From a virus: 36,272 nt of DNA. The notes under the pieces were generated by a model, which searched no databases, was not told where the DNA came from, and worked only from the letters and a program-made list of their open reading frames with translations. The stretch lies in the IMG/VR virus record IMGVR_UViG_3300028536_000028, positions 1 to 36,272 of that record. One strand, written 5' to 3'. Below are positions 5,070 to 27,294 of the stretch, piece after piece (within the stretch, counting starts at the first letter, position 1; every line of letters starts with the position of its first letter). The translations under genes and the position numbers were made by a program.

Positions 5070-5302
5070 TTCTTGGCGCTCCCATCGGAGGAATCGTCAG
5101 TGGAAGCCGTCGCCTCGGCCGCGGCGGGTGCCGCCTGTGAATCGACTAGCGCAATGAGCGCCCCGTCGTGCCATTCGAGATAGTTCTCCGGGTCGGGCCC
5201 GTCATACGGGTCACCGATGTCGTAATGCTTGTCCTTGCCGGTCTTCGGGTCCGTTCGGTCAAAAACCCGAATGACCACGTACTTAGTTTTGGCTGCAGGC
5301 AT
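5066..5302 (-). CDS. Small structural-region protein of unknown function
   Basis: A 78-residue product from ATG 5302. The N-terminal half looks like a small beta domain (KYVVIRVFDRTD, then HYDIGDPYDG). The C-terminal third is a low-complexity Ala/Thr/Ser/Asp tail ending in KK. It lies between the putative tail terminator gene and the major tail gene and overlaps the latter by 4 bases. Similar short proteins accompany tail tube genes in actinophages, but I do not recognise a function. Its partner 6486-6800 has the same layout of a small N-terminal domain and a charged, disordered tail. Confidence 0.6.
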   Translation of the reverse strand: MPAAKTKYVVIRVFDRTDPKTGKDKHYDIGDPYDGPDPENYLEWHDGALIALVDSQAAPAAAEATASTDDSSDGSAKK

Positions 5303-6811: not shown

Positions 6812-7732
6812 TTACGGCGAGGTCTCGGTACCGGTCAGCACGAAGACCGACTTCGGCTGGTCGATGCCCACGGCGGACGCGCGCTGCACGTCGGACCGAG
6901 AGACCTTGCGCGGCTCGTCGCGGTAGAGCGGCGTCGCCTGCAGCGGCAGCTCGTCGGCGATGAACCCGGATGCGCCGCGCTGCAGGAAGATGGCGGTGCC
7001 GAGCGGAACACGCGGCGAAACCAGCACGTTCAGCCCCATGATCTTCTGGGGCAGCTTGCCGGTGTAGCGCAAGTTCTCATCGGCAATGTCGCCGCCGTAG
7101 TATTCCTGGTTGAACTGCGAAGACTTCAGAATGTCGAACTTCGCGGTCTGCCCGATGATCATCGTGTCGCAGACGTAACCAAGAATGGAACCCTGGGTAT
7201 CCTTCGCCGTCTCAATGGCCTTCATGGCCATCAGGATGTCGTTGCGGATATCAGTGGTTCCCACCGACCACAGGCCACCACCAACACCGGCGGTGAGCAC
7301 ATTCGCGTTGGTCAGCACGGCCTGGACGAACACGTCGTCCCAAGCGCGGATGATGCTGTTCTTGACCTGCGTCATGCGAATCTGCAATTTGTCGATATCG
7401 CTACGGCGGACGTCCTCATCGGAGATGACAACGGCCAGCGACTTCTCGACGCTGTAGGCCACATTCGGCTGACCGAGGCTGGTGCGGGCCACCGGCACCT
7501 CGGCGAACTCAGCGCGGTTCAGCACCGCCGAGTCAGCGAACAGCGGGTTCGTCTCGTAGTAGCGGACAACACCGGCGGGAGCGGAGCCTGCGGTGCGCAG
7601 AACCGCATCCGCGAGAAAGCCCTGCTTCATCATGTCGACGAGATAGATCGGGACCCGAAGCGGGTCCTTCAACCACTCGTTGACTGTTACGAGTGGGCCG
7701 TCCTGGACTGAGATATTGGGAAGCGCAACCAT
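6812..7732 (-). CDS. Major capsid protein, HK97-type fold
   Basis: A 306-residue product from ATG 7732, with a GAGG ribosome site 9 bases upstream. It contains segments typical of HK97-like capsid proteins of actinophages: an N-arm (VNEWLKDPL), an E-loop region (ARTSLGQPNVAYSVEKSLAV), a spine-helix region (ITDKLQIRMTQVKNSIIRAWDDVF type), and a C-terminal A-domain with LPQKIMGLNVLVSPRVP. There is no long N-terminal scaffolding delta domain; scaffolding is probably supplied by the C-terminal half of the protease gene at 8170-9423. Position after the decoration gene supports the call. Confidence 0.88.
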   Translation of the reverse strand: MVALPNISVQDGPLVTVNEWLKDPLRVPIYLVDMMKQGFLADAVLRTAGSAPAGVVRYYETNPLFADSAVLNRAEFAEVPVARTSLGQPNVAYSVEKSLAVVISDEDVRRSDIDKLQIRMTQVKNSIIRAWDDVFVQAVLTNANVLTAGVGGGLWSVGTTDIRNDILMAMKAIETAKDTQGSILGYVCDTMIIGQTAKFDILKSSQFNQEYYGGDIADENLRYTGKLPQKIMGLNVLVSPRVPLGTAIFLQRGASGFIADELPLQATPLYRDEPRKVSRSDVQRASAVGIDQPKSVFVLTGTETSP

Positions 7733-16501: not shown

Positions 16502-16514
16502 CAGACGTCGCCTC

Positions 16515-16559
16515 GTCCACTCGATTGACAAAGGTCTACATAGGGTCTAGGTTGTGGGC
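16515..16559 (+). promoter_or_regulatory. Cassette promoter 1 with double operator
   Basis: Dyad GTCCAC-TCG-ATTGAC overlaps the -35 TTGACA (16525-16530). Dyad GTCTAG-GTT-GTGGGC (16545-16559) overlaps the -10 TAGGTT (16548-16553), with a 17-base spacer. The dyads are 30 bp apart. An extra palindrome GTTGTG-GG-CACAAC (16551-16564) covers the likely start point. Unlike the other copies, transcription has a leader with AGGAG before ATG 16579. Confidence 0.7.
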
Positions 16560-16578
16560 ACAACGACAGGAGCAGCAC

Positions 16579-17100
16579 ATGGCCGGATGGATCAGCACCG
16601 GAGTCGGGCCCTTCCGGGTCGGCACCCGCATCGGCGGAGGGCCCCAGCGTGAGCTGCGCAGCCCCTTCGCCCGGGGCGCCATCGGCATCTGGGGCCTGCT
16701 CGTGATCATCACGTTCTTCACCGTGCCGGTGGTGACCGCGGTCCTGATCGTCGGGCTGATCCCGCTGTTCATCGCCTGCATGATCGCGGAGGTGACCCAC
16801 AAGACCCCGGAACAGAAGGCCGAGAGGACGAAGAACAAGGCCGCCACTCGAGACCCGGCGCTGGCGCTGTCGCAAGTAGGTCAGCCGGCCTGGTATGAAG
16901 CTCAGGCCGCGAACCTGCGGGCCCAGCACCTGGCCGGGAGAAAGATCACCCACCGGGCCAGGACAGTGATCAAGAACCGCCCCGACCTCGAGTACGTCAT
17001 CTACCCGGAGCGCAAGCCGGTCGACCCGTTCCAGTTCTTCTCCGAGTCAGACCGGGCCTGGTACGCGCGAATGGCTGGCGACACCCCGGAGGCCCAGTGA
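16579..17100 (+). CDS. Two-helix membrane protein
   Basis: A 173-residue product from ATG 16579, with AGGAG 6 bases upstream. Two adjacent hydrophobic segments (about residues 37-57 and 59-75: GIWGLLVIITFFTVPVV, then VLIVGLIPLFIACMI) form a membrane hairpin. A basic helical region and a C-terminal domain with KNRPDLEYVIYPERKPVDPF follow. Both ends probably face the cytoplasm. It is the first gene after cassette promoter 1. Function unknown; small membrane proteins expressed from repressor-controlled phage promoters may act in exclusion, but nothing here proves that. Confidence 0.65.
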   Translation: MAGWISTGVGPFRVGTRIGGGPQRELRSPFARGAIGIWGLLVIITFFTVPVVTAVLIVGLIPLFIACMIAEVTHKTPEQKAERTKNKAATRDPALALSQVGQPAWYEAQAANLRAQHLAGRKITHRARTVIKNRPDLEYVIYPERKPVDPFQFFSESDRAWYARMAGDTPEAQ

Positions 17101-17322: not shown

Positions 17323-17407
17323 GGAGGATTGGCCGAGCGGTAAGGCAGCCGTCCCGAAAACGGTAGTCGGGATCACTCCCGCGCAGGTTCGATCCCTGCA
17401 TCCTCCG
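17323..17407 (+). tRNA. tRNA-Ser (anticodon CGA), with C33
   Basis: The acceptor arms GGAGGAT (17323-17329) and ATCCTCC (17400-17406) pair fully, with discriminator G17407 as in serine tRNAs. D-stem is GCC/GGC. The anticodon stem GCCGT/ACGGT closes the 7-base loop CCCGAAA, giving anticodon CGA (17355-17357). A class II long variable arm (CGGG-6-CCCG) and a T-arm with TTCGATC loop follow. Position 33 is C instead of the almost universal U. CCA is not encoded. It reads codon UCG. Confidence 0.88.
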
Positions 17408-17410
17408 CGT

Positions 17411-18827: not shown

Positions 18828-19236
18828 GGTGAAGATGATCATGGGAAAATGGGAGAGAGGACGCGGAGTAACAGTCAATGCCGCGTCGACCCTCTACTGA
18901 TCGCGCGCGCAAGAAAGCGGGGGCCTGGGTGGGTGGCGGGCGGGGTCTCCCCGGCCGCTGTGCGCCGCGCTGAGCGCGCCGGAGGGTGACATGGTGCCCA
19001 TCCCGTGGAGGGTGACCGGTCGGGCTCTCCCGGGAGGGTGACCGGTGACCATCCGGGATGGTCCATGGTGACCGGTCATCAGTGACCGGTGACCGGTCCT
19101 GATCGGGATGGTGGATGGTGACCGGTCGCATGGTCACCCGGTGGGCTCGTGTGTGTGCGTGTGTGTGGGGGAGGTGGGTGGGGCGTTGGTGGTACGCCAT
19201 CCACACCACGGCGTCTGTCCTGTGCACACCATGGGG
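18828..19236. repeat. Non-coding region with GGTGACCGGT repeat array
   Basis: No convincing gene lies in this stretch. GGTGACCGGT occurs exactly at 19011, 19037, 19067, 19088 and 19117, with AGTGACCGGT at 19081 and a looser GGTCACCCGGTG at 19132. A larger 50-bp periodic unit (SATCSGGGATGGTSSATGG before the core, at about 19050 and 19100) is also repeated. A GT-rich run follows (19148-19190). Such iterons suggest binding sites for a replication, partition or regulatory protein. Confidence 0.65.
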
Positions 19237-19282
19237 GTCTGGCGAGTGGACAGCACATGCCTCGTGTGTCTACTCTGTTGGC
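19237..19282 (+). promoter_or_regulatory. Cassette promoter 2, leaderless
   Basis: GTCTGG-CGA-GTGGAC (19237-19251) overlaps the -35 TGGACA (19247-19252). GTCTAC-TCT-GTTGGC (19268-19282) overlaps the -10 TACTCT (19271-19276), 18-base spacer. Dyads start 31 bp apart. ATG follows at 19283, so the mRNA should be leaderless. Confidence 0.65.
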
Positions 19283-19648
19283 ATGCTGATTGAGCTTGCG
19301 TTAGCGGCAGTGCTGCACACATCGCCCACGCCGCCGAGTGGTGATGGTGGTCCACAGGTGACCGTCACACACACCTGCACCGATGGTGCGAAGGGTCGTG
19401 TGTGCCACACATCGACCCGCACTGTGACCCGCAGTGGTGGTCCTGTGAAGGCCGCTAAGGGTGCGGCAGCCAAGCCCCCGGTGGACACGGTGGGCAACAC
19501 ACGCAAGGCCTCTGTGGTGTCAGTAGTGCCCGTCACCATGCTGACCGGGACCATGCTGGTGCACCTGCACGCCATGGGCTACGACGCAGTGGGGGCCTCG
19601 ATCAGCGTGCCCACCGTGCTGCTGACAGAGGTACTGCGCATGCCGTAG
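19283..19648 (+). CDS. Unknown protein with hydrophobic ends, leaderless
   Basis: A 121-residue product. ATG 19283 is chosen because it lies exactly 6 bases after the -10 of cassette promoter 2. The N-terminus (MLIELALAAVLHTSP) is a short hydrophobic helix. The middle is Thr/Gly-rich with two Cys (CTDGAKGRVC). A second hydrophobic region lies near the C-terminus (ASVVSVVPVTMLTGTMLVHL). Membrane insertion or secretion is possible. No family recognised. Codon use is less G/C-biased at third positions than the late genes. It ends 2 bases before the convergent gene at 19651. Confidence 0.5.
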   Translation: MLIELALAAVLHTSPTPPSGDGGPQVTVTHTCTDGAKGRVCHTSTRTVTRSGGPVKAAKGAAAKPPVDTVGNTRKASVVSVVPVTMLTGTMLVHLHAMGYDAVGASISVPTVLLTEVLRMP

Positions 19649-19650
19649 GG

Positions 19651-19848
19651 CTAGATCTCGATCGGCGGCTCAGCGATGCCGAGCTCCACCTCAGCCTCGT
19701 ACCGCAGACCACGGGCAGCGTGTACCAGTGCCGCCGTGGGCTCGTACTCGGTCAGGAAGGCCTGCAGCGCCTCCCTGCGGTTGCCGGCCTCCCGTATCAG
19801 CCGGATCGCTGCCAGGTGCTTACCGGCCCGTGAGAGAGTGTCACCCAT
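19651..19848 (-). CDS. Small helical protein, one side of a divergent pair
   Basis: A 65-residue product from ATG 19848 on the minus strand. TAGAAT (19860-19855) ends 6 bases before the ATG, so this too may be leaderless; no ribosome site is seen. The protein is helical (LSRAGKHLAAIRLIREAGNR, then REALQAFLTEYEP) with an acidic end. No recognised HTH. Its back-to-back placement with the gene at 19905, sharing a 56-base control region, suggests a regulatory pair. Confidence 0.55.
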   Translation of the reverse strand: MGDTLSRAGKHLAAIRLIREAGNRREALQAFLTEYEPTAALVHAARGLRYEAEVELGIAEPPIEI

Positions 19849-19904
19849 GGGTCGATTCTAGCAGGTCAACACGGGTGAGTGGACGCGCCTGGTATGCTGG
19901 ATTG
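19849..19904. promoter_or_regulatory. Divergent promoter region with two ATG-proximal -10 boxes
   Basis: On the minus strand TAGAAT lies 6 bases before ATG 19848. On the plus strand TATGCT (19893-19898) lies 6 bases before ATG 19905. The spacer holds GTTGAC and GTCCAC half-sites (minus strand) like those of the cassette promoters, but in a different spacing (8 bases apart). No clear -35 boxes are seen. Confidence 0.45.
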
Positions 19905-20246
19905 ATGATCCACAAGGGCGTTTCAGGGGTGAGTGGGCGCACCCGCACCACCCCTACGGCTGCTGGAAATCAGAGGCCGCTGCACGCGGTACCACGGCCT
20001 CAAGACCCCGATCCCCTGACCGTCCTGCCTGCCACGCTGCTGGACACCGAGCCTGGTCCTGCCCGTATCCGCGCCCTGAACGCCTACATCACCGCTGGTG
20101 ACGAGAAGGTCCGCGCCGCTCGCCTGCTGCGTAACGCTGACCTGCGGGCCCTGGCGCACTCCATGGGGCCTACCAGGGCCGCTAGAGCCGCTGAGATGAC
20201 CCTGGCCACCGTGAAGGGCCTGCTCCGGGGCTCATTGCCCCGCTGA
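19905..20246 (+). CDS. Putative HTH DNA-binding protein, candidate regulator
   Basis: A 113-residue product from ATG 19905, 6 bases after a TATGCT box and without ribosome site. The first 50 residues are Thr/Pro/Arg-rich and probably flexible. The C-terminal part is helical, with RAARAAEMTLATVKGLLRG (about 91-109) resembling a helix-turn-helix in which AAEMTLATVKGLL forms turn and recognition helix. That, together with divergent placement, makes it a candidate regulator of the cassette promoters. This is inference; the HTH match is moderate. Confidence 0.5.
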   Translation: MIHKGVSGVSGRTRTTPTAAGNQRPLHAVPRPQDPDPLTVLPATLLDTEPGPARIRALNAYITAGDEKVRAARLLRNADLRALAHSMGPTRAARAAEMTLATVKGLLRGSLPR

Positions 20247-20250
20247 GCGC

Positions 20251-20856
20251 CTATCCGCCCAGCTCGGTCCAGGCATGCTCGATAACCGCTGGTAGGGCGT
20301 CACGCTGCCTCTGATCCAGGCCTAGGACGGGATTGCGCATCACTGAGCGGAGTACCTGGGCGATCAGCTCCCCCTGGCGTTCGGCCAGCTTCACTTGGCG
20401 TTCTTGCAGGCCAGCGGTTATCGCTGTCTTGCAGAACGCTGCGCATCGGTCTCTCTCGCTGTTTTCAAGCTGGACTAGACCGCGCAGGTACTCGCCTTGC
20501 TTCTGGGCCTCTCCGGTCTCGTCGGTGGTCCAGACGTCGCCGACCAGGGCTTTCCTCACCGGGATGCCTTTCGCCTCAGCCTCTGCGATGAAGTCGGCGA
20601 CCTCCTGGGCGTACTTCTTGACCCGGGCCGCTGATTAGCTGACCAGCGCCAGGAGGGTCTCGCCAGGGTCCACGTTCGGGGCGTCGAGGCCCCAACGCAT
20701 GAAATCGGCCCTCACCGCGGCCCTGGCCCTGACCTGCGGCGTTCCACCGCCATGGGACCGGCAGACCGTTCCGCCCTCAATGGCGTACTTGCCGCAGCGT
20801 TTGCCGGTTGACCTGGACTTCGCCGTGCATTTCGTCGCCGGGATGGTCGCGGTCAT
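20251..20856 (-). pseudogene. Zinc-finger (HGGGTPQ) protein gene broken by an in-frame TAA
   Basis: From ATG 20856 (GGAGGG upstream) the product has CTAKSRSTGKRCGKYAIEGG, CRSHGGGTPQVRARAA and LLALVS, then TAA at codon 74 (20637-20635). The same frame continues with SAARVKKYAQEVADF and, further on, LVQLENSERDRCAAFCKTAI, AGLQERQVKLAERQGELIAQ to 20251. I know these two halves as one protein in actinophages and prophages, sometimes near terminase genes. Family members I recall read VSQ at the break, so one C-to-T change (CAA to TAA) would explain it. The two parts may still be expressed separately (ATT/GTG re-start) or by readthrough. Confidence 0.7.
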
Positions 20857-20884
20857 GGATCCGACACCCTCCAAGCGCTGATTT

Positions 20885-20930
20885 GTCCACATCGTTGACA
20901 GGGATTCTCACCACGGTCTAGTCTGTGGAC
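20885..20930 (+). promoter_or_regulatory. Cassette promoter 3, leaderless
   Basis: GTCCAC-ATC-GTTGAC (20885-20899) overlaps the -35 TTGACA (20895-20900). GTCTAG-TCT-GTGGAC (20916-20930) overlaps the -10 TAGTCT (20919-20924), 18-base spacer. ATG is at 20931, directly after the second dyad. Confidence 0.8.
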
Positions 20931-21125
20931 ATGGCCGACACCCGTATCTGCGCAGACTGCCTCTCCAACGCGAAGGACTCCGCCTACCAGAACCTCCGCG
21001 ACGAGGCGGCGGACGCTGGCATCGACTTCTGGGCGCTGGCCGAGGCGCGCGGCGGAGTTGACCAGGTGGCCGCGTCCTACGTCTCCGGTGGCGACAGCCG
21101 TTGCTCCGCTCACGAGGGGTGCTGA
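20931..21125 (+). CDS. Small cysteine-rich protein, leaderless
   Basis: A 64-residue product from ATG 20931, placed 6 bases after the -10 of cassette promoter 3; no ribosome site precedes it. CADC near the N-terminus and CSAHEGC at the end could form a zinc site that brings both termini together. The middle is helical and acidic (DEAADAGIDFWALAEARGG). First gene of a run of five small genes ending at the hairpin at 21969. Function unknown. Confidence 0.6.
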   Translation: MADTRICADCLSNAKDSAYQNLRDEAADAGIDFWALAEARGGVDQVAASYVSGGDSRCSAHEGC

Positions 21126-21126
21126 C

Positions 21127-21363
21127 ATGAGTTCATCGCTGCCCAGCTGGATCACCGAGCGCATCGCCCAGACCCAGGTGCCCTACGTGCCAGCCTGGAC
21201 GGTTCGGCTGACCCGGATCGACAACTCCGGTGATGAGCGCGTGTTCGTCGAGACGTCTTGGCTGGTCTCGACCCTCTTTGACACCCGGCACGAGGCGAAC
21301 GCCTACGCGCTGGCCGCCATCAAGTTCCCGCACATCATCGCCGTATCCGTCCAGGAGGCCTGA
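21127..21363 (+). CDS. Small protein, unknown function
   Basis: A 78-residue product from ATG 21127, one base after the previous stop. Mixed alpha/beta: WTVRLTRIDNSGDERVFVET, then TRHEANAYALAAIKFPHII. The shape suggests a small domain of strands plus one helix. It shares an operon with the leaderless gene before it. No family recognised. Confidence 0.55.
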   Translation: MSSSLPSWITERIAQTQVPYVPAWTVRLTRIDNSGDERVFVETSWLVSTLFDTRHEANAYALAAIKFPHIIAVSVQEA

Positions 21364-21368
21364 TCACC

Positions 21369-21584
21369 ATGAGCATGCATGTCGAGTGGGATAGCGCGGA
21401 CCTGTACGTCTCGGTCATGACCGGCGAGGAGGCAACCGAGGAATTCGGCCCGGACGAGGGGGTCACGGCGCCGTTCGTGCTGTCGCTCGGTGGCGCTTCC
21501 GGCGGCCTTCTGGCGATCGAGGGAACACGGGACGCACTGCTGAACCTGGCCGACCGGATCCGCGACGCCGTGTGGGCGGCCTGA
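21369..21584 (+). CDS. Small acidic beta-rich protein
   Basis: A 71-residue product from ATG 21369. It is acidic with strands (SADLYVSVMTGEEATEEFGP, then PFVLSLGGASGGLLAIEGTR) and a C-terminal helix (ALLNLADRIRDAVWAA). An upstream GGAGG (in the end of the previous gene) is 8-10 bases before the ATG. No family recognised; acidic small proteins in such regions may mimic DNA or bind host enzymes, but that is speculation. Confidence 0.55.
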   Translation: MSMHVEWDSADLYVSVMTGEEATEEFGPDEGVTAPFVLSLGGASGGLLAIEGTRDALLNLADRIRDAVWAA

Positions 21585-21589
21585 TCGCC

Positions 21590-21664
21590 ATGTCGTATCT
21601 GTATGCGTCGATGCTGGTCACCGTTGTGGCCCTGCTCGCGCTGATGCTCAAGGAGCAACGATGA
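21590..21664 (+). CDS. 24-residue transmembrane microprotein
   Basis: ATG 21590 opens a 24-codon frame, MSYLYASMLVTVVALLALML and KEQR, a single membrane helix with a basic end. The stop overlaps the next ATG (ATGA at 21661), and it carries AAGGAG, the ribosome site of that gene, in its last codons. It sits 5 bases after the previous stop. Too short for statistical proof, but the hydrophobic design and the overlap support expression. Confidence 0.45.
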   Translation: MSYLYASMLVTVVALLALMLKEQR

Positions 21665-21951
21665 TCCACACCACGACGTATGTGCACGTCCACGAAGACG
21701 ACCCGTTCACCGTGGCACCAGCGAACACTTCCGAGCGGCTGCAGATCGTCTTCGGGGACAGCCCCAACATCGACGTGACGGTTTGGATGCCGATCGAGAA
21801 GGCCCAAGAGCTCGCACAGGCCATCCTGGCGCGCTACCCGCTGGTCGACGACGCGGCACCTCGGCCGCTGACCAGCCCCGAGCGTGAGCGGCTGCGCGCG
21901 GCCGGCTGGCCCGCTGTGCTGCCCGCCCCGACCGTGCTGTACCCGGAGTAG
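21661..21951 (+). CDS. Small protein, unknown function
   Basis: A 96-residue product from ATG 21661, with AAGGAG 5 bases upstream inside the microprotein frame. Strand-rich N-half (TTYVHVHEDDPFTVAPANTS, LQIVFGDSPNIDVTVWMP), then helix KAQELAQAILARYPL and a Pro-rich end. Last gene before the terminator at 21969. No family recognised. Confidence 0.55.
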   Translation: MIHTTTYVHVHEDDPFTVAPANTSERLQIVFGDSPNIDVTVWMPIEKAQELAQAILARYPLVDDAAPRPLTSPERERLRAAGWPAVLPAPTVLYPE

Positions 21952-21968
21952 GCCGTCCGTAAGTCTTT

Positions 21969-21997
21969 CTAGCCCGTGGCCATTGGTTACGGGCTAG
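21969..21997 (+). terminator. Hairpin terminator before cassette promoter 4
   Basis: CTAGCCCGT (21969-21977) pairs with ACGGGCTAG (21989-21997), 9 bp with an 11-base loop, followed by ATTGCTGTCT. It lies 17 bases after the previous stop and ends the small-gene operon. Confidence 0.65.
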
Positions 21998-22003
21998 ATT
22001 GCT

Positions 22004-22049
22004 GTCTAGCGTGTTGACAGTAGCTCGATTGGCCGTCTACTCTCTAGAC
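22004..22049 (+). promoter_or_regulatory. Cassette promoter 4, leaderless
   Basis: GTCTAG-CGT-GTTGAC (22004-22018) overlaps the -35 TTGACA (22014-22019). GTCTAC-TCT-CTAGAC (22035-22049) overlaps the -10 TACTCT (22038-22043), 18-base spacer. ATG at 22050 follows directly. Confidence 0.85.
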
Positions 22050-22181
22050 ATGACCGAGCAGCCCCGCGAAACCACGGTGATCATCACCGTCGATGACGAG
22101 TCGCCCGAAGACAGCTTCCGCCTCCTGTCCGCGGATCTGCGTTGGGAAGCCGCGCACGCCGAGTTCTACGCCGCGATCTGA
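22050..22181 (+). CDS. 43-residue acidic protein, leaderless
   Basis: ATG 22050 is 6 bases after the -10 of cassette promoter 4. The product (MTEQPRETTVIITVDDESPE, then DSFRLLSADLRWEAAHAEFY) is acidic: one strand, then a helix. Its small size explains why it can be missed. The next gene starts 11 bases after its stop behind AAGGAG. Function unknown. Confidence 0.55.
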   Translation: MTEQPRETTVIITVDDESPEDSFRLLSADLRWEAAHAEFYAAI

Positions 22182-22192
22182 AGGAGATCATC

Positions 22193-22489
22193 ATGCGCAT
22201 CCACACGAACATCGCCGACGGACCCACCATCCGCCACGCCGCATACCTGGCCGACGCCCGCGTTTTCCGCCTGGAGGCGAAGGGCTCCCGCAGCCACTCC
22301 ATGGCCTTCGAGGTCAACCTGTCCGGCAACTCGCCGCGGCGCACCCAGAACGACCGCGACGAGTACGCGGCGACCTACGACCAGTGGGGCGTCTTCCTGG
22401 CCGCCCTGTACGTGATCGAACCGACGATGAAAGCGGGCCCGTACCGGAACGTGGCCGACTTCCGGGCCAAGACCCACGGGGCCTACTGA
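22193..22489 (+). CDS. Conserved-looking phage protein, unknown function
   Basis: A 98-residue product from ATG 22193, with AAGGAG about 7 bases upstream. It contains SRSHSMAFEVNLSGNSPRRT and EYAATYDQWGVFLAALYVIE, then DFRAKTHGAY. Similar short proteins occur in actinophages and conjugative elements near anti-restriction genes, I believe, but no function is assigned. The last codon is followed by one base and then the ATG of the next gene. Confidence 0.55.
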   Translation: MRIHTNIADGPTIRHAAYLADARVFRLEAKGSRSHSMAFEVNLSGNSPRRTQNDRDEYAATYDQWGVFLAALYVIEPTMKAGPYRNVADFRAKTHGAY

Positions 22490-22490
22490 C

Positions 22491-23111
22491 ATGGCTGAGC
22501 TGATTCCCACCACGGCGGACAACGCCACCCACGCGCGCTACGTGGACAACATCAAGTCCGCGTTCGGGGTCGCATCCGCCGAGCATCTGGCCGCCGGGCG
22601 GCGCTGGTATCCGACCGCGCGCCAGCTGGCCTACGTGATGGCTTCTGGCATGGATGACGGCACCCCGGAAGGGTTCGACCGGGCGGTCCGGGCCGGCTCC
22701 GGGGTGATCGCCGCCCTGTCGCCACAGAAGGCCTGGACGACCAACGTGGCCATGGCCAGCAAGGCGTTCCAGACCGGCGAGGCTCGCGGGCACGTCACCG
22801 ATGCCTGCGACAAGGCCGAGCGGATCATGAACGGGGAGGACCCGCTCGCCGTGCTGCCCGACGAGTCCAAGACCTGGAATTTCTTCCGCTGCATCGTCGA
22901 TCCGACCGACGCCGATGCCGTGGTCATCGACCGGCACGCGCACGACGTGGCCGTGGGCACCGTGTACGGCGGGACCGATCGCGGGCTGTCCAACAAGCGC
23001 CGGTACGCCACCGTGGCGCACGCCTACCGCGAGGCCGCCCGTCAGCTCGGCGAGTTGCCGCAGACCGTCCAGGCAGTCGTCTGGGTCGCACACATCGAGC
23101 GCGACCGCTAA
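22491..23111 (+). CDS. DUF7178-like protein, possible HhH-type DNA protein
   Basis: A 206-residue product from ATG 22491. It has ARYVDNIKSAFG, RRWYPTARQLAYVMASGM, GVIAALSPQKAWTTNVAMAS, KAERIMNGEDPLAVL and VVIDRHAHDVAVG. This helical pattern, with ALSP..W..N...A and IDRHA, occurs in a family of phage and plasmid proteins that I tentatively recall as DUF7178; helices resemble helix-hairpin-helix DNA glycosylases, though a catalytic Lys/Asp pair is not proven. It would fit a DNA-modifying or DNA-protecting role next to ArdC. Confidence 0.5.
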   Translation: MAELIPTTADNATHARYVDNIKSAFGVASAEHLAAGRRWYPTARQLAYVMASGMDDGTPEGFDRAVRAGSGVIAALSPQKAWTTNVAMASKAFQTGEARGHVTDACDKAERIMNGEDPLAVLPDESKTWNFFRCIVDPTDADAVVIDRHAHDVAVGTVYGGTDRGLSNKRRYATVAHAYREAARQLGELPQTVQAVVWVAHIERDR

Positions 23112-23152
23112 CCCGTCCATCCCCCGCGAACATCCACTCAGAGGAGATCATC

Positions 23153-23641
23153 ATGGCCGACCGGACCCAGCTTCAGCTTTTCATCCACGACTGCCCCGAC
23201 GACCAGGCTCCCGCGCTCTTTGACGTGCTGGCCGACTGGGGCCTACGCGTCGATTGGGATGGCCGGCTCGCCGCCCCCGGTGAGCTGCACATCGGCACCC
23301 CGTACACGGAGCGCCTCGCCGCCCTGGACGCGGCCGACGAACTGGCCGCCGAACTGATCGACGCGGCGCCCGGAGTCAAGTTCACCCTGTGGACGGATCC
23401 CGCGTACGAGTGGTTGGGCACCCTGGTCCGCTACACACCCGAGCTCGGCCGCCACGACGCCGAGTGTGACGCGGAGGGCCAGGGGGTCTACTTCGAGGCT
23501 CAGATCCTGGCCGCGCTACGCACCGGCGGCCCGGCCGTGGGCGCTCAGGCCGTGCTGGCACTGGTCGGGGTCGCCTGGACGGAGACGCTGCGCGGTGGCA
23601 CCACGGAGCGCGTCATCACCTACACCGTGACGGACGACTGA
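23153..23641 (+). CDS. Unknown protein, 162 residues
   Basis: From ATG 23153, with GAGGAG 7-8 bases upstream. Alternating strands and helices (QLFIHDCPDDQAPALFDVLA, LHIGTPYTERLAALDAADEL, VKFTLWTDPAYEWLGTLVRY) suggest a two-layer alpha/beta domain. Two Cys are present but no metal pattern. The end is GTTERVITYTVTDD. No family recognised. Lies 41 bases after the DUF7178-like gene and one base before the next small gene. Confidence 0.55.
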   Translation: MADRTQLQLFIHDCPDDQAPALFDVLADWGLRVDWDGRLAAPGELHIGTPYTERLAALDAADELAAELIDAAPGVKFTLWTDPAYEWLGTLVRYTPELGRHDAECDAEGQGVYFEAQILAALRTGGPAVGAQAVLALVGVAWTETLRGGTTERVITYTVTDD

Positions 23642-23642
23642 C

Positions 23643-23819
23643 ATGCGCGCGCACCGCCCCGGTTGCGATCACTGCGCCATGGTCGCCGCCTACCGGGACA
23701 CCGTGGCCGCCGAGCGGGAGAACGCGGGCGGCTGGCGCAACGAGACGTTCCGCCCGTCGATCACGTTCGGTCAGTGGCTCATCCTCTGGCACCGCGAACG
23801 TCGCCTAGTGGAGGCCTAA
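23643..23819 (+). CDS. 58-residue zinc-binding small protein
   Basis: ATG 23643 opens a 58-codon frame: MRAHRPGCDHCAMVAAYRDT, later TFRPSITFGQWLILWHRERR. H-x3-C-x2-HC near the N-terminus is a likely metal site. Starts one base after the previous stop and ends one base before the next ATG, so it fills the gap exactly. A similar layout (short zinc head plus helix) is frequent in phages. Function unknown. Confidence 0.55.
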   Translation: MRAHRPGCDHCAMVAAYRDTVAAERENAGGWRNETFRPSITFGQWLILWHRERRLVEA

Positions 23820-23820
23820 C

Positions 23821-24150
23821 ATGTGGATCATCTTCCTGGCGCTGTTCGCCTGGCTGTTCATCTGGGCGGCCCGGCGGATCGTGCGCCGCATGCGCCATGT
23901 CGACGCGCTGCGTGCCCAGGTCGTCGAGCTGTCCACGAAGCTGAACGAGCTCGGCAACGCCTGGCAGATCGAACGTGATTGGCGAGTGCGGCTTCAGACC
24001 TACATTGCGAGCTCTGAGCGCGTCGTGAGGACACCGGAGCCGGTTGCGCCGGTGGTTGTGCCCGCCGAGCTCGAAGCGGACGACACAGACCCGCTGGACG
24101 CGCCACGGGTGGTCACCCGGCGCAAGAAGCCGCGCCGCAAGTCTGTCTAG
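23821..24150 (+). CDS. Membrane-anchored coiled-coil protein
   Basis: A 109-residue product from ATG 23821. Residues 1-16 (MWIIFLALFAWLFIWA) are one membrane helix followed by a basic stop-transfer (RRIVRRMRH). A coiled coil (about 26-60) and a Pro/Val-rich linker lead to a very basic tail (RRKKPRRKSV). The N-in or N-out topology is uncertain, but the basic tail suggests the bulk is cytoplasmic. The last codons lie inside the first dyad of cassette promoter 5. Confidence 0.6.
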   Translation: MWIIFLALFAWLFIWAARRIVRRMRHVDALRAQVVELSTKLNELGNAWQIERDWRVRLQTYIASSERVVRTPEPVAPVVVPAELEADDTDPLDAPRVVTRRKKPRRKSV

Positions 24151-24190
24151 CGTGTTGACACCCTAGGGAGTCACTGTCTAGTCTCTAGAC
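24145..24190 (+). promoter_or_regulatory. Cassette promoter 5 for ardC
   Basis: GTCTAG-CGT-GTTGAC (24145-24159) overlaps the -35 TTGACA (24155-24160). GTCTAG-TCT-CTAGAC (24176-24190) overlaps the -10 TAGTCT (24179-24184), 18-base spacer. The second dyad is a perfect palindrome. An ATG lies at 24193, 2 bases further than in the other copies. Confidence 0.85.
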
Positions 24191-24216
24191 AGATGCCCGC
24201 GATCCTGGAGGACACC

Positions 24217-25155
24217 ATGGCCACCGCCACCCGCAAGCGCCCCGCCCGCAAGGCCTCGGCCGTCAAGGTCGACGCCTACCAGGTGATCACCGATCAGATC
24301 ATCGAGCTCCTGGACTCCGGTGTGGCGCCGTGGCATAAGCCGTGGAACGCCGAGACGGGCATGCCGCTGTCGATGTCGACCGGCCGCTACTACCGGGGCG
24401 TGAACGTGTTCCTGCTGGCCATGCAGTCGGCCGTCAAGGGCTACGCGTCGCCGTGGTGGGGCACGTACAAGCAGATCGCCGAGCGGGGCGGCCAGGTCCG
24501 TAAGGGCGAGAAGGCCACCATGATCGTCTTCTGGAAGCAGATCCTGAAGCTGGACGAGTCGACCGGCAAGAACATCGCGTTTTGGATGGTCCGCACGTTC
24601 AACGTGTTCAACGCCGAGCAGACCGAAGACGCCTCGGTGCTGGGCCTGCCGGCGCCGGCCGAGCCGAAGGGCCTGCCGGAACAGATCGCCGAGTGCGACG
24701 CCGTGGTGGCGCGCTACCTGGCAGGCGGCCCGTCCTTCGAGGTGGGCGGCGACGCGGCCTACTACATGCCCGGTGTCGATCACGTGCAGATGCCCGAGCT
24801 CGCTACGTTCATCGGCTCGGAGGAGTACTACGGCACGCTGTTCCATGAGCTCACCCACTCGACCGGGCACAGCTCGCGGCTGGACCGCGACGGCGTGGCG
24901 AACCTGCCGACCGGGCACCGCTTCGGCGACGCGCTGTACTCGAAGGAGGAGCTAGTGGCCGAAATGGGCGCGGCGTTCCTGGCCGGCATGACCGGCATCG
25001 CGGCGAAGACGCTGCCGAACTCGGCGGCCTACCTGCAGAGCTGGATTCGAGTCCTGCGCGGGGACAAAAAGCTCCTGGTTGGCGCCGCCGCGCAGGCCCA
25101 GAAGGCCGCGGACCTGATTCTCGGCGTCACGTTCGAGGCCACGACCGAGGACTGA
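24217..25155 (+). CDS. ardC: ArdC-like anti-restriction protein
   Basis: A 312-residue product from ATG 24217, with GGAGG 5 bases upstream; the in-frame ATG 24193 next to the promoter would add 8 residues (leaderless start). The N-terminal domain (about 18-135) has DQIIELLDSGVAPWHKPWN and YYRGVNVFLLAMQS, GEKATMIVFWK, typical of the ArdC ssDNA-binding domain. The C-terminal domain is a zincin-like metallopeptidase with FHELTHSTGH (His210, Glu211, His214) and a later Glu in KEELVAEMGAAFL. ArdC proteins protect incoming DNA from restriction. All key residues are present, so the gene looks functional. Confidence 0.9.
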   Translation: MATATRKRPARKASAVKVDAYQVITDQIIELLDSGVAPWHKPWNAETGMPLSMSTGRYYRGVNVFLLAMQSAVKGYASPWWGTYKQIAERGGQVRKGEKATMIVFWKQILKLDESTGKNIAFWMVRTFNVFNAEQTEDASVLGLPAPAEPKGLPEQIAECDAVVARYLAGGPSFEVGGDAAYYMPGVDHVQMPELATFIGSEEYYGTLFHELTHSTGHSSRLDRDGVANLPTGHRFGDALYSKEELVAEMGAAFLAGMTGIAAKTLPNSAAYLQSWIRVLRGDKKLLVGAAAQAQKAADLILGVTFEATTED

Positions 25156-25170
25156 GCCCCGTCCGACCAT

Positions 25171-25201
25171 CCCCCGGTGTCTAGTTCGTTGACACCGGGG
25201 G
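25171..25201 (+). terminator. Hairpin after ardC, overlapping the next promoter
   Basis: CCCCCGGTGTC (25171-25181) pairs with GACACCGGGGG (25191-25201), 11 bp with a 9-base loop. It follows the ardC stop by 15 bases, and its right arm contains part of the -35 and first dyad of cassette promoter 6. No T-run follows. Confidence 0.55.
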
Positions 25202-25224
25202 ATGCTGGCGTCTATTCTCTAGAC
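25179..25224 (+). promoter_or_regulatory. Cassette promoter 6, leaderless
   Basis: GTCTAG-TTC-GTTGAC (25179-25193) overlaps the -35 TTGACA (25189-25194). GTCTAT-TCT-CTAGAC (25210-25224) overlaps the -10 TATTCT (25213-25218), 18-base spacer. ATG 25225 follows directly. Confidence 0.85.
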
Positions 25225-26511
25225 ATGACCAACGCAGCGCTTGTGACCACCGGCCCGATGACGCTGGACGGCACCCCCGACGACCACGCGTGGATCTACC
25301 GCGACACCATCCGCACCGGCACCATGGCCACGCTCACGCAGGCCGTGACCGAGGCCGCCCAGAAGCTGGCGAAGCGCCTGCCGGGCGTTCGGGTGCACGT
25401 CTGGTCGCGCGACGCGGGCATGCTCGAATGGTGCACCACGCACCGGGTGTTCCTCTGCCAGGGCGAGGAGGGCGACGTCTGCTCCTACGTTCACCAGCAC
25501 GCCACCACGGTTGAGGTGACCGCGACCGGGCTGCCCGTGTTCGACGGCACCTGGTCGGTGGCCGGTGTGCTGCGGGTGGACAGCGAGAACGTGGTCACCG
25601 CGCACACCGTAGGCCGCGCCAGCGAGAGTTTCGCCTCCGCGTTCACCGGCCTGGCCGGCACCTGCGAGCACTGCGGGACGCAGCGCCGCCGCAACGTCAC
25701 CGTGCTGCTGACCGACGTGGACGGCAACGTGCGGCCGGTCGGGCGGTCCTGCCTGGCCGAGTACACCGGCGGCAGCATCCGGGCGGAGATCCTGGGCGAT
25801 CTGCTGGCCGTGGGCGAGCGGTTCCGCGAGGCGTTCGGCGTGGCCCTGTCGGCCGACCCCGACTCCGCCCCGGTGGAGGACGTCGTGGCCTGTGCGTTGA
25901 TCCTGGTCGCCATGCACGGTTTCGTCCGGGTCGACGACGGCGGATTCGGCCGGGCCGTCCCGACCGTGCAGCGGCTGCACGACTGCATCTGCCCCGGCAA
26001 GACCCCGGGCGACGTCATCCCGGCCGAGCTGACCGACGCGCAGCGGCAGGCGGCACGCGACGCCATCGCCCTGGTCGCCAGCGCCGATGACGGCTCCGAG
26101 TACCTGGCCAACCTGCGCGCCGTCGTGACCAACGAGTGGACCCAGGTGACCGGGCGCGGCCAGAAGCTCGGCCTACTGGCCAGCCTGCCGGCCGCTGTCG
26201 AGCGGATGGCCCGCCAGGGCGCCGAGAAGGCCGCTCAGGGCGACGCTGGCGCCTGGATCGGAGCCCTGGACGAGAAGGTGACCCTCTCCGGCACCGTGAC
26301 CGGGGTGAGCTTCTTTGAGGGCTCCTACGGCACGTCGTGGCTCGTCAAGGTGGCCACCGAGGCCGGCGCGGTGAAGATGTTCACCACGGCGCGCGGACTG
26401 CGCGAGCTCGAAGCCGGCGCGGCCGTCACCATCACCGGCACGGTGCGCAGCCACGACGAGTTCCGCGGCGTGCGAGAGACCCTGCTCGGGCGGCCGAAGC
26501 TGATCGGCTGA
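25225..26511 (+). CDS. Zinc-finger plus OB-like C-terminal domain protein, leaderless
   Basis: A 428-residue product from ATG 25225. Cys147 and Cys150 (CEHCGTQRRR) and Cys176 (GRSCLAEYTGG) form a zinc site known from plasmid and phage proteins often found beside ArdC. The last 85 residues (VTLSGTVTGVSFFEGSYGTS, TARGLRELEAGAAVTITGTV) look like an OB fold, which would bind single-stranded nucleic acid. The N-terminal 140 residues have several more Cys/His (CTTH, CSYVHQH). A role in DNA entry or protection is inferred from the neighbour. No catalytic centre is visible. Confidence 0.65.
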   Translation: MTNAALVTTGPMTLDGTPDDHAWIYRDTIRTGTMATLTQAVTEAAQKLAKRLPGVRVHVWSRDAGMLEWCTTHRVFLCQGEEGDVCSYVHQHATTVEVTATGLPVFDGTWSVAGVLRVDSENVVTAHTVGRASESFASAFTGLAGTCEHCGTQRRRNVTVLLTDVDGNVRPVGRSCLAEYTGGSIRAEILGDLLAVGERFREAFGVALSADPDSAPVEDVVACALILVAMHGFVRVDDGGFGRAVPTVQRLHDCICPGKTPGDVIPAELTDAQRQAARDAIALVASADDGSEYLANLRAVVTNEWTQVTGRGQKLGLLASLPAAVERMARQGAEKAAQGDAGAWIGALDEKVTLSGTVTGVSFFEGSYGTSWLVKVATEAGAVKMFTTARGLRELEAGAAVTITGTVRSHDEFRGVRETLLGRPKLIG

Positions 26512-26847: not shown

Positions 26848-26886
26848 ATCGGCCCGACTAGGAACACCCTGGTCGGGCCGATTTGT
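26848..26886 (+). terminator. Rho-independent terminator with T-tail
   Basis: ATCGGCCCGAC (26848-26858) pairs with GTCGGGCCGAT (26872-26882), 11 bp with a 13-base loop, followed by TTGTTTGTC. One of the clearest intrinsic terminators in the window; it also shields cassette promoter 7. Confidence 0.8.
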
Positions 26887-26888
26887 TT

Positions 26889-26934
26889 GTCCGGGTGATT
26901 GACGCCGTGCGGTATGGTTGTCTGGTCACTAGAC
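26889..26934 (+). promoter_or_regulatory. Cassette promoter 7, with leader
   Basis: GTCCGG-GTG-ATTGAC (26889-26903) overlaps the -35 TTGACG (26899-26904). GTCTGG-TCA-CTAGAC (26920-26934) overlaps a poor -10 TGGTCA (26923-26928). Dyads are 31 bp apart. An 18-base leader with GGAGG leads to GTG 26953. Confidence 0.7.
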
Positions 26935-26952
26935 GAGACGAATGGAGGCGAC

Positions 26953-27294
26953 GTGACCGCCAAGACTCAGCCGGTGAGCTCACTCGCCGTCGACATCGAC
27001 AAGATCCACGCCATGGCCGGTCTGCTGGCCGAGGTCCGCGACGCGTACACCGCGCAGGTGGCCGAGGACCGGGGCCGCTACCTCGCCGACCTGGAGTACG
27101 TCCGGACGCTGCGCGAGGCCGTCAAGGACTTCGAGAACGCCATGCTGCGCGACTACTGGCGCGCCCCCCGCCCGCTGCGGGCCCCGGTGGCCGACGTGCT
27201 GCGGGCCGGTGACATCTCGCGCGCCTGGCTGTATCAGATCCGGGGCCGCGTCGAGCGATCAGGCGAGCTCGGCCCGGATACCCTGGCCGAGTAG
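26953..27294 (+). CDS. Putative DNA-binding helical protein, candidate regulator
   Basis: A 113-residue product from GTG 26953, with GGAGG 4 bases upstream. It is helical throughout: an N-terminal coil (DIDKIHAMAGLLAEVRDAYT), then a region VADVLRAGDISRAWLYQIRG that could form a helix-turn-helix with ISRAWLYQIRG as recognition helix. It is the only one of the cassette genes with the weak -10 and a ribosome site, which could suit an autoregulated regulator. Candidate for the dyad-binding protein; the assignment is inference. Confidence 0.5.
   Translation: MTAKTQPVSSLAVDIDKIHAMAGLLAEVRDAYTAQVAEDRGRYLADLEYVRTLREAVKDFENAMLRDYWRAPRPLRAPVADVLRAGDISRAWLYQIRGRVERSGELGPDTLAE

Follow-up and report, generated by a model that had tools for sequence, protein, structure and literature searches.

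Probable leaderless promoter cassettes in the window

The complete IMG/VR virus record IMGVR_UViG_3300028536_000028 (36,272 bases, G+C 0.67; hereafter the window) contains seven promoter cassettes with two dyads each, 46 bp long (one 45 bp) and all located in an accessory gene block on the plus strand. We conclude that four of them are very probably leaderless, dual-operator promoters fused to start codons, of the type known as extended start-associated sequences (ESAS) in cluster K mycobacteriophages. The initial annotation had reported a gap of exactly 6 bases between the -10 hexamer and the ATG, with no ribosome site, in cassettes 19237, 20885, 22004 and 25179. A window-wide pattern search found this gap exactly as described, and no Shine-Dalgarno (SD) sequence was found upstream of the four ATGs.

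The pattern TANNNT-N6-ATG had six matches on both strands of the window, all at the six places named in that annotation. Four were at the cassettes on the plus strand: TACTCT-GTTGGC-ATG (ATG at 19283), TAGTCT-GTGGAC-ATG (20931), TACTCT-CTAGAC-ATG (22050) and TATTCT-CTAGAC-ATG (25225). The other two, TATGCT-GGATTG-ATG (19905, plus) and TAGAAT-CGACCC-ATG (19848, minus), form a divergent pair. Shuffled windows gave a mean of 1.6 matches and a maximum of 5 in 60 shuffles, and gaps of 5 or 7 bases between TANNNT and ATG had zero matches in the window. The full pattern TTGACA-N18-TANNNT-N6-ATG, with 1 mismatch allowed, matched 4 times, at the four cassettes, compared with 0.01 matches expected. A promoter scanner set to the E. 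coli consensus and to spacers of 16-18 recovered only the promoter at 25189, indicating that this setting is too strict for this phage.

The same arrangement was present in a sister phage, contig L123 (15,090 bp), the sole contig in the genome collection matched by a degenerate dual-dyad pattern. Its portal and terminase share 90% and 85% amino-acid identity with those of the window phage, and gene order is kept; all comparisons with a close relative rest on this one phage. A blind scan of both sequences for T[TG]GAC-N17..19-TANNNT gave 10 matches, all of them cassettes, with an ATG at exactly +6 in 8 of the 10. The exceptions were 16525 (ATG at +25, with AGGAG) and 24155 (ATG at +8, or an SD-led start at +32). 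L123 has +6 ATGs at 7721, 9004, 10384 and 10840 and leadered cassettes at 5147 and 13304, so that by these counts the leaderless fusion appears to be the commonest form (4 of 7 cassettes in the window, 4 of 6 in L123). All eight leaderless cassettes have C at -1, A at +1 and T at +2. The annotation's claim of a consistently leaderless regulon was not borne out, as SD leaders follow three of the window's seven cassettes (16515, 24145 and 26889), which share the dyads.

It is quite unlikely that the cassettes are in fact leadered, with transcription starting at another promoter upstream and the +6 ATG arising as a by-product of the palindrome (...GACA followed by TG). While the three cassettes that have the same dyads and no +6 ATG indicate that the dyad does not need the ATG, the +6 ATG was kept in 8 of the 10 promoters of the two phages, mostly before unrelated genes, and several of these genes, besides having no SD upstream, have no alternative start within 40 bases.

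Paired dyads over the promoter

Each cassette contains two dyads of 15-17 bp, recorded as the 17-mers O1 and O2, which lie 31 bp apart (30 bp in one window cassette and one L123 cassette) and have the consensus TGTCTAG-N3-CTAGACA with arms GTC...GAC. O1 has the -35 hexamer as its right arm, and O2 spans the -10, beginning a few bases upstream of it. The second dyad had been said to end at the start codon, and this is accurate to the base in the leaderless cassettes, where the last base of the O2 17-mer is the A of the ATG. The related claim that operator, -10 and initiation site are fused is supported by this geometry, which recurs in the sister phage.

Across 12 cassettes (7 from the window and 5 from L123, with 24 dyads), GTC in the left arm and T, G and C in the right arm were invariant, and the GTC/GAC arms outside the hexamers were nearly so. 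Conservation of the arms outside the hexamers is not explained by sigma recognition and points to the dyads being operators. A model built from the dyad sites had strong matches in the window that were almost confined to the cassettes.

The repeats could be recent duplications of one cassette, with the 6-base gap inherited, not functional, and its spacing unselected. The cassettes are clearly related, and the O1 sequences of cassettes 22004 and 24145 are identical. We nevertheless consider this explanation very unlikely, because both phages retain the arms, the -35, the -10, the 18-bp spacing and the 6-base gap despite divergence of the spacer DNA and of the codons that follow the ATG.

Proposed mechanism

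In the mechanism that we propose, each of the four cassettes would be a housekeeping-type (SigA/HrdB-like) promoter overlaid by two operator dyads with centres separated by 31 bp, roughly three turns of the helix. O1 would supply the -35 (TTGACA) through its right arm, and O2 would supply the TA of the -10 through its left arm. RNA polymerase would start at the A of the ATG and produce a leaderless mRNA translated by direct 5'-AUG recognition; for later genes of each unit, starts would be SD-led or coupled. When bound, a dimeric repressor encoded by the phage, with probable cooperativity over both sites, would block polymerase. We infer the transcription start at the ATG, the leaderless translation and the repressor from the geometry of the cassettes and its conservation.

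Published data on actinobacteria agree with such a start. In M. tuberculosis, the centre of TANNNT lies 7-12 bp before the transcription start site, +1 is mostly a purine, and there is a preference for C at -1 and T at +2 (PMC3898074). A TA-like signal ~12 bp before the start identifies leaderless genes, which make up >20% of actinobacterial genes (PMC3160421), in line with the annotation's statement that leaderless translation is common in this group. In mycobacteria, leaderless translation requires a 5' ATG or GTG, and such a codon suffices for it (PMC4633059). The cassettes have TANNNT ~12 bp before the start codon, and because a +1 at the A of the ATG matches the known distance, a leaderless mRNA is the best reading. 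The ATG is also supported as the real start by conserved N-termini (19283 in the window with 7721 in L123, and the DUF7178 gene in L123).

A repressor is the likely ligand of the dyads, since a protein sitting on O1 and O2 would cover both promoter hexamers as well as the start site. The dyads may instead be sites for an activator or a phage sigma factor at a middle-gene promoter, from which transcription would still begin at the ATG. This is rather unlikely: the dyads do precede many genes, and the phage may be virulent, given that neither a repressor nor an integrase was found among the phage proteins scanned, but a protein bound to O1, over the -35, and to O2, over the -10 to +1, would exclude polymerase, and hexamers already near the SigA consensus make an activator unnecessary.

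Several points weigh against leaderless, repressor-controlled cassettes. Two of the four leaderless open reading frames (ORFs), of 43 and 64 aa, are short and unmatched. Dyad palindromy (4.4-4.8 of 8 pairs, background 2.2) was measured on sites picked for the motif and is partly circular. The cassette copies may be related by duplication. No repressor of the cassettes was identified, the best candidate being the 26953 protein, which has no homologue beyond L123. The host is uncertain and appears to be actinobacterial as judged by composition and relatives. L123 was found in a Streptosporangiaceae metagenome-assembled genome (MAG), in which it may be misbinned.

Comparison with ESAS and leaderless genes

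The ESAS of cluster K phages are 46-47 bp long and have SigA-like hexamers 17-18 bp apart and inverted repeats of 15-17 bp; their role has been termed unclear, and repression has been suggested (PMC3203893; phage Adephagia, PMC11373665). The window resembles them in having several ~46-bp intergenic copies (seven) among nonstructural genes, and in the 17-18 bp between -35 and -10 in six window and four L123 cassettes, which 26889 does not fit. An imperfect pair of 15-17-bp repeats lies over the promoter hexamers, and the repeats are proposed repressor sites in both. In TM4, each ESAS repeat is itself nearly palindromic, like the dyads of the window.

Sequence sets the two apart. The 13-bp start-associated sequence (SAS), GGGATAGGAGCCC, had two matches in the window at 2 mismatches, which is chance level, and none at the cassettes. 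The window has GTCTA/TAGAC, compared with TGTTGA/TCAACA or GTGTAG/CTACAC in cluster K (the K1, K2 and K4 repeats all differ from those of the window), and no meaningful DNA match to the cassette was found in phage records. The window is best classed as an ESAS-type dual-operator promoter system with its own dyad sequence and in leaderless form. No sequence similarity to the cluster K ESAS was found, and the two systems may be either homologous or convergent.

The annotation regarded the fused design as notable. Its geometry was confirmed but is less unusual than claimed, as several ESAS of K4 phages already end on the start codon: in Yasnaya_Polyana, 3 of 7 ESAS have a right repeat whose final base is also the first of the start codon (PMC12699233). 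In Fionnbharth, also K4, we found -10-N7-ATG at 3 of 6 ESAS, and the other 3 were leadered with an SD. In the former (26448, 29385 and 31035), the ATG follows the -10 after 7 bases and falls on the last base of the repeat; they look leaderless, a reading that was not found in the ESAS papers cited here (PMC3203893, PMC11373665, PMC12699233). The gap is thus 6 bases in the window and 7 in K4 ESAS. That another phage lineage has the same layout with dyads of unrelated sequence suggests that ESAS function as dual-operator promoters, and that leaderless mRNAs arise from those that reach the start codon.

Leaderless regulator mRNAs are known from other phages, including lambda cI and PY54 cI and cro (PMC4488713; PY54 by rapid amplification of cDNA ends), and from the E. 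coli prophage genes dicA, racR and ymfK (PMC4681348). As would be the case in the window, these mRNAs start at the AUG of a phage gene beside operators; they come from single switch genes, whereas the window has several accessory genes on one repeated promoter-operator-start module. Actinobacterial leaderless genes with TANNNT (PMC3160421, PMC3898074, PMC4633059) likewise have the -10 ~12 bp before the start and no untranslated region, but are chromosomal and have no shared dual operator. Microbacterium phages of clusters EF and EG also carry repeated start-associated motifs or inverted repeats before nonstructural genes, but those of EF are an SD-like SAS and the inverted repeats of EG lie 14-22 bp before the start (PMC7302621).

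Streptomyces phage UNTPL has four annotated TANNNT-N6 starts (27833, 30810, 45403 and, on the minus strand, 4823; one is TTG) and no annotated TANNNT starts at the other gaps from 2 to 12. Judging from these four, leaderless starts by themselves are no rarity among actinophages. PhiC31, considered as a model, has 0 annotated starts at gap 6.

Individual cassettes and their genes

All cassettes are on the plus strand. Cassette 1 (19236..19285) consists of O1 at 19236-19252 with the -35 TGGACA at 19247-19252, an 18-bp spacer, the -10 TACTCT at 19271-19276, O2 at 19267-19283 and the ATG at 19283-19285. It precedes a predicted leaderless ORF of 121 aa (19283..19648) that begins MLIELALAAVLH..., the sister protein beginning MILELALAAVLH... 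The orthologous cassette is at L123:7675, and the gene at 7721 is the orthologue of 19283, with its N-terminus conserved from the ATG. Directly upstream of cassette 1, six copies of TGACCGGT are clustered at 19013-19126, and the cluster is kept in L123 (7423-7567, 8 copies); possible roles are iterons, an origin or a binding array of another protein.

Cassette 2 (20884..20933; O1 20884-20900, -35 TTGACA 20895-20900, -10 TAGTCT 20919-20924, O2 20915-20931, ATG 20931) has a syntenic counterpart at L123:8958. The predicted leaderless ORF of 64 aa (20931..21125) heads an operon in which later genes are SD-led or coupled. Cassette 3 (22003..22052; O1 22003-22019, -35 22014-22019, -10 TACTCT 22038-22043, O2 22034-22050, ATG 22050) is followed by a small predicted leaderless ORF of 43 aa (22050..22181), an SD-led ORF at 22193 and the DUF7178 gene (22491-23111). 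It aligns with L123:10794, where the ATG (10840) starts the DUF7178 gene. This gene therefore stands directly on the cassette ATG in L123 and two genes downstream of the orthologous cassette in the window. Cassette 4 (25178..25227; O1 25178-25194, -35 25189-25194, -10 TATTCT 25213-25218, O2 25209-25225, ATG 25225) precedes a predicted leaderless ORF of 428 aa (phrog_2319, 25225..26511) with a third-position G+C of 0.94. Its O1 sits in a 14-bp perfect inverted repeat at 25168-25204 (CATCCCCCGGTGTC...GACACCGGGGGATG); this hairpin might influence the ArdC transcript that comes from upstream.

L123 cassettes front mostly unrelated genes, and four keep the 6-base gap. As the two phages place unrelated genes at the same cassette ATG and differ in where the DUF7178 gene stands, we tentatively suggest that the cassette may be a plug-in module of promoter, two operators and start codon, in which a joined coding sequence would gain regulated expression without a leader or SD, and that the same design may have arisen independently in K4 mycobacteriophages; we hold this to be possible, if somewhat doubtful. 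If true, the arrangement would show a route by which phages add regulated genes without a ribosome-binding site.

The three remaining cassettes lack a +6 ATG. Cassette 24145 (24144..24191; O1 24144-24160, -10 TAGTCT 24179-24184, O2 24175-24191) has an ATG at 24193, 8 bases past the -10, and a second at 24217 with GGAGG 5 bases before it, which starts the ArdC-like anti-restriction gene (24217..25155). In cassette 16515 (16514..16560), which is conserved at L123:5147, the dyads are 30 bp apart (O1 16514-16530, -35 16525-16530, -10 TAGGTT 16548-16553, O2 16544-16560) and an SD (AGGAG, 16568-16572) precedes the ATG at 16579. Cassette 26889 is a weak dyad pair (26888..26935) preceded by a terminator (26848-26882), conserved at L123:13304/13334 and followed by an SD-led gene (GGAGG 26944-26948, GTG 26953).

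Candidate regulator and divergent starts

The gene behind this weak dyad pair encodes a conserved protein of 113 aa (26953..27294, plus strand), kept in L123, with a predicted coiled coil and C-terminal short helices that may form a helix-turn-helix (HTH). AlphaFold gave a long helix and short helices, for which Foldseek found no match, and no family match was obtained. It is a weak candidate for the regulator of the cassettes.

The divergent pair had been annotated with the same 6-base gap, which is present. On the minus strand (19651..19860, ORF of 65 aa), the extended -10 TGC-TAGAAT (hexamer 19855-19860) is followed after 6 bases by the ATG at 19848, and on the plus strand (19890..20246, ORF of 113 aa) TGG-TATGCT (hexamer 19893-19898) is followed after 6 bases by the ATG at 19905. 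Its inclusion in the regulon did not stand: there were no matches to the dyad model at either start, an extended -10 (TGN) takes the place of a good -35, and the pair was not seen in L123. It is a separate promoter class outside the dyad regulon. In G002, a more distantly related phage, TANNNT-N6-ATG matches four times, without the dyads of the window; two of the matches form a divergent pair (608 minus, 666 plus), one start belonging to a small HTH-like protein and the other to an HNH endonuclease-like protein.

Genome context and relatives

The structural genes (tape measure, major head protein, portal and terminase) occupy the minus strand to ~16.5 kb. The accessory block follows on the plus strand to 27.3 kb, and minus-strand replication genes extend from there to the window end. 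The closest phages by protein include Streptomyces phages, at ~38-53% identity only. Searches of the viral contig collection gave no match to the degenerate dual-dyad pattern, no real match to the exact cassette patterns (the single match, L004, is AT-rich and due to chance), and no relatives by the 25225-26511 or 26953 proteins. ArdC matches were numerous in the viral contigs, and the dyad pair was in none of the retrieved loci. No cassette was found in 298 further genomes from the family to which the L123 MAG belongs.

The accessory block also holds a tRNA-Ser (CGA) gene at 17323-17408. A minus-strand gene upstream of terminase (20251-20892) has an in-frame TAA at 20635-20637; the frame of its L123 counterpart is open, protein similarity runs on both sides of the stop, and the gene possibly encodes the small terminase subunit.

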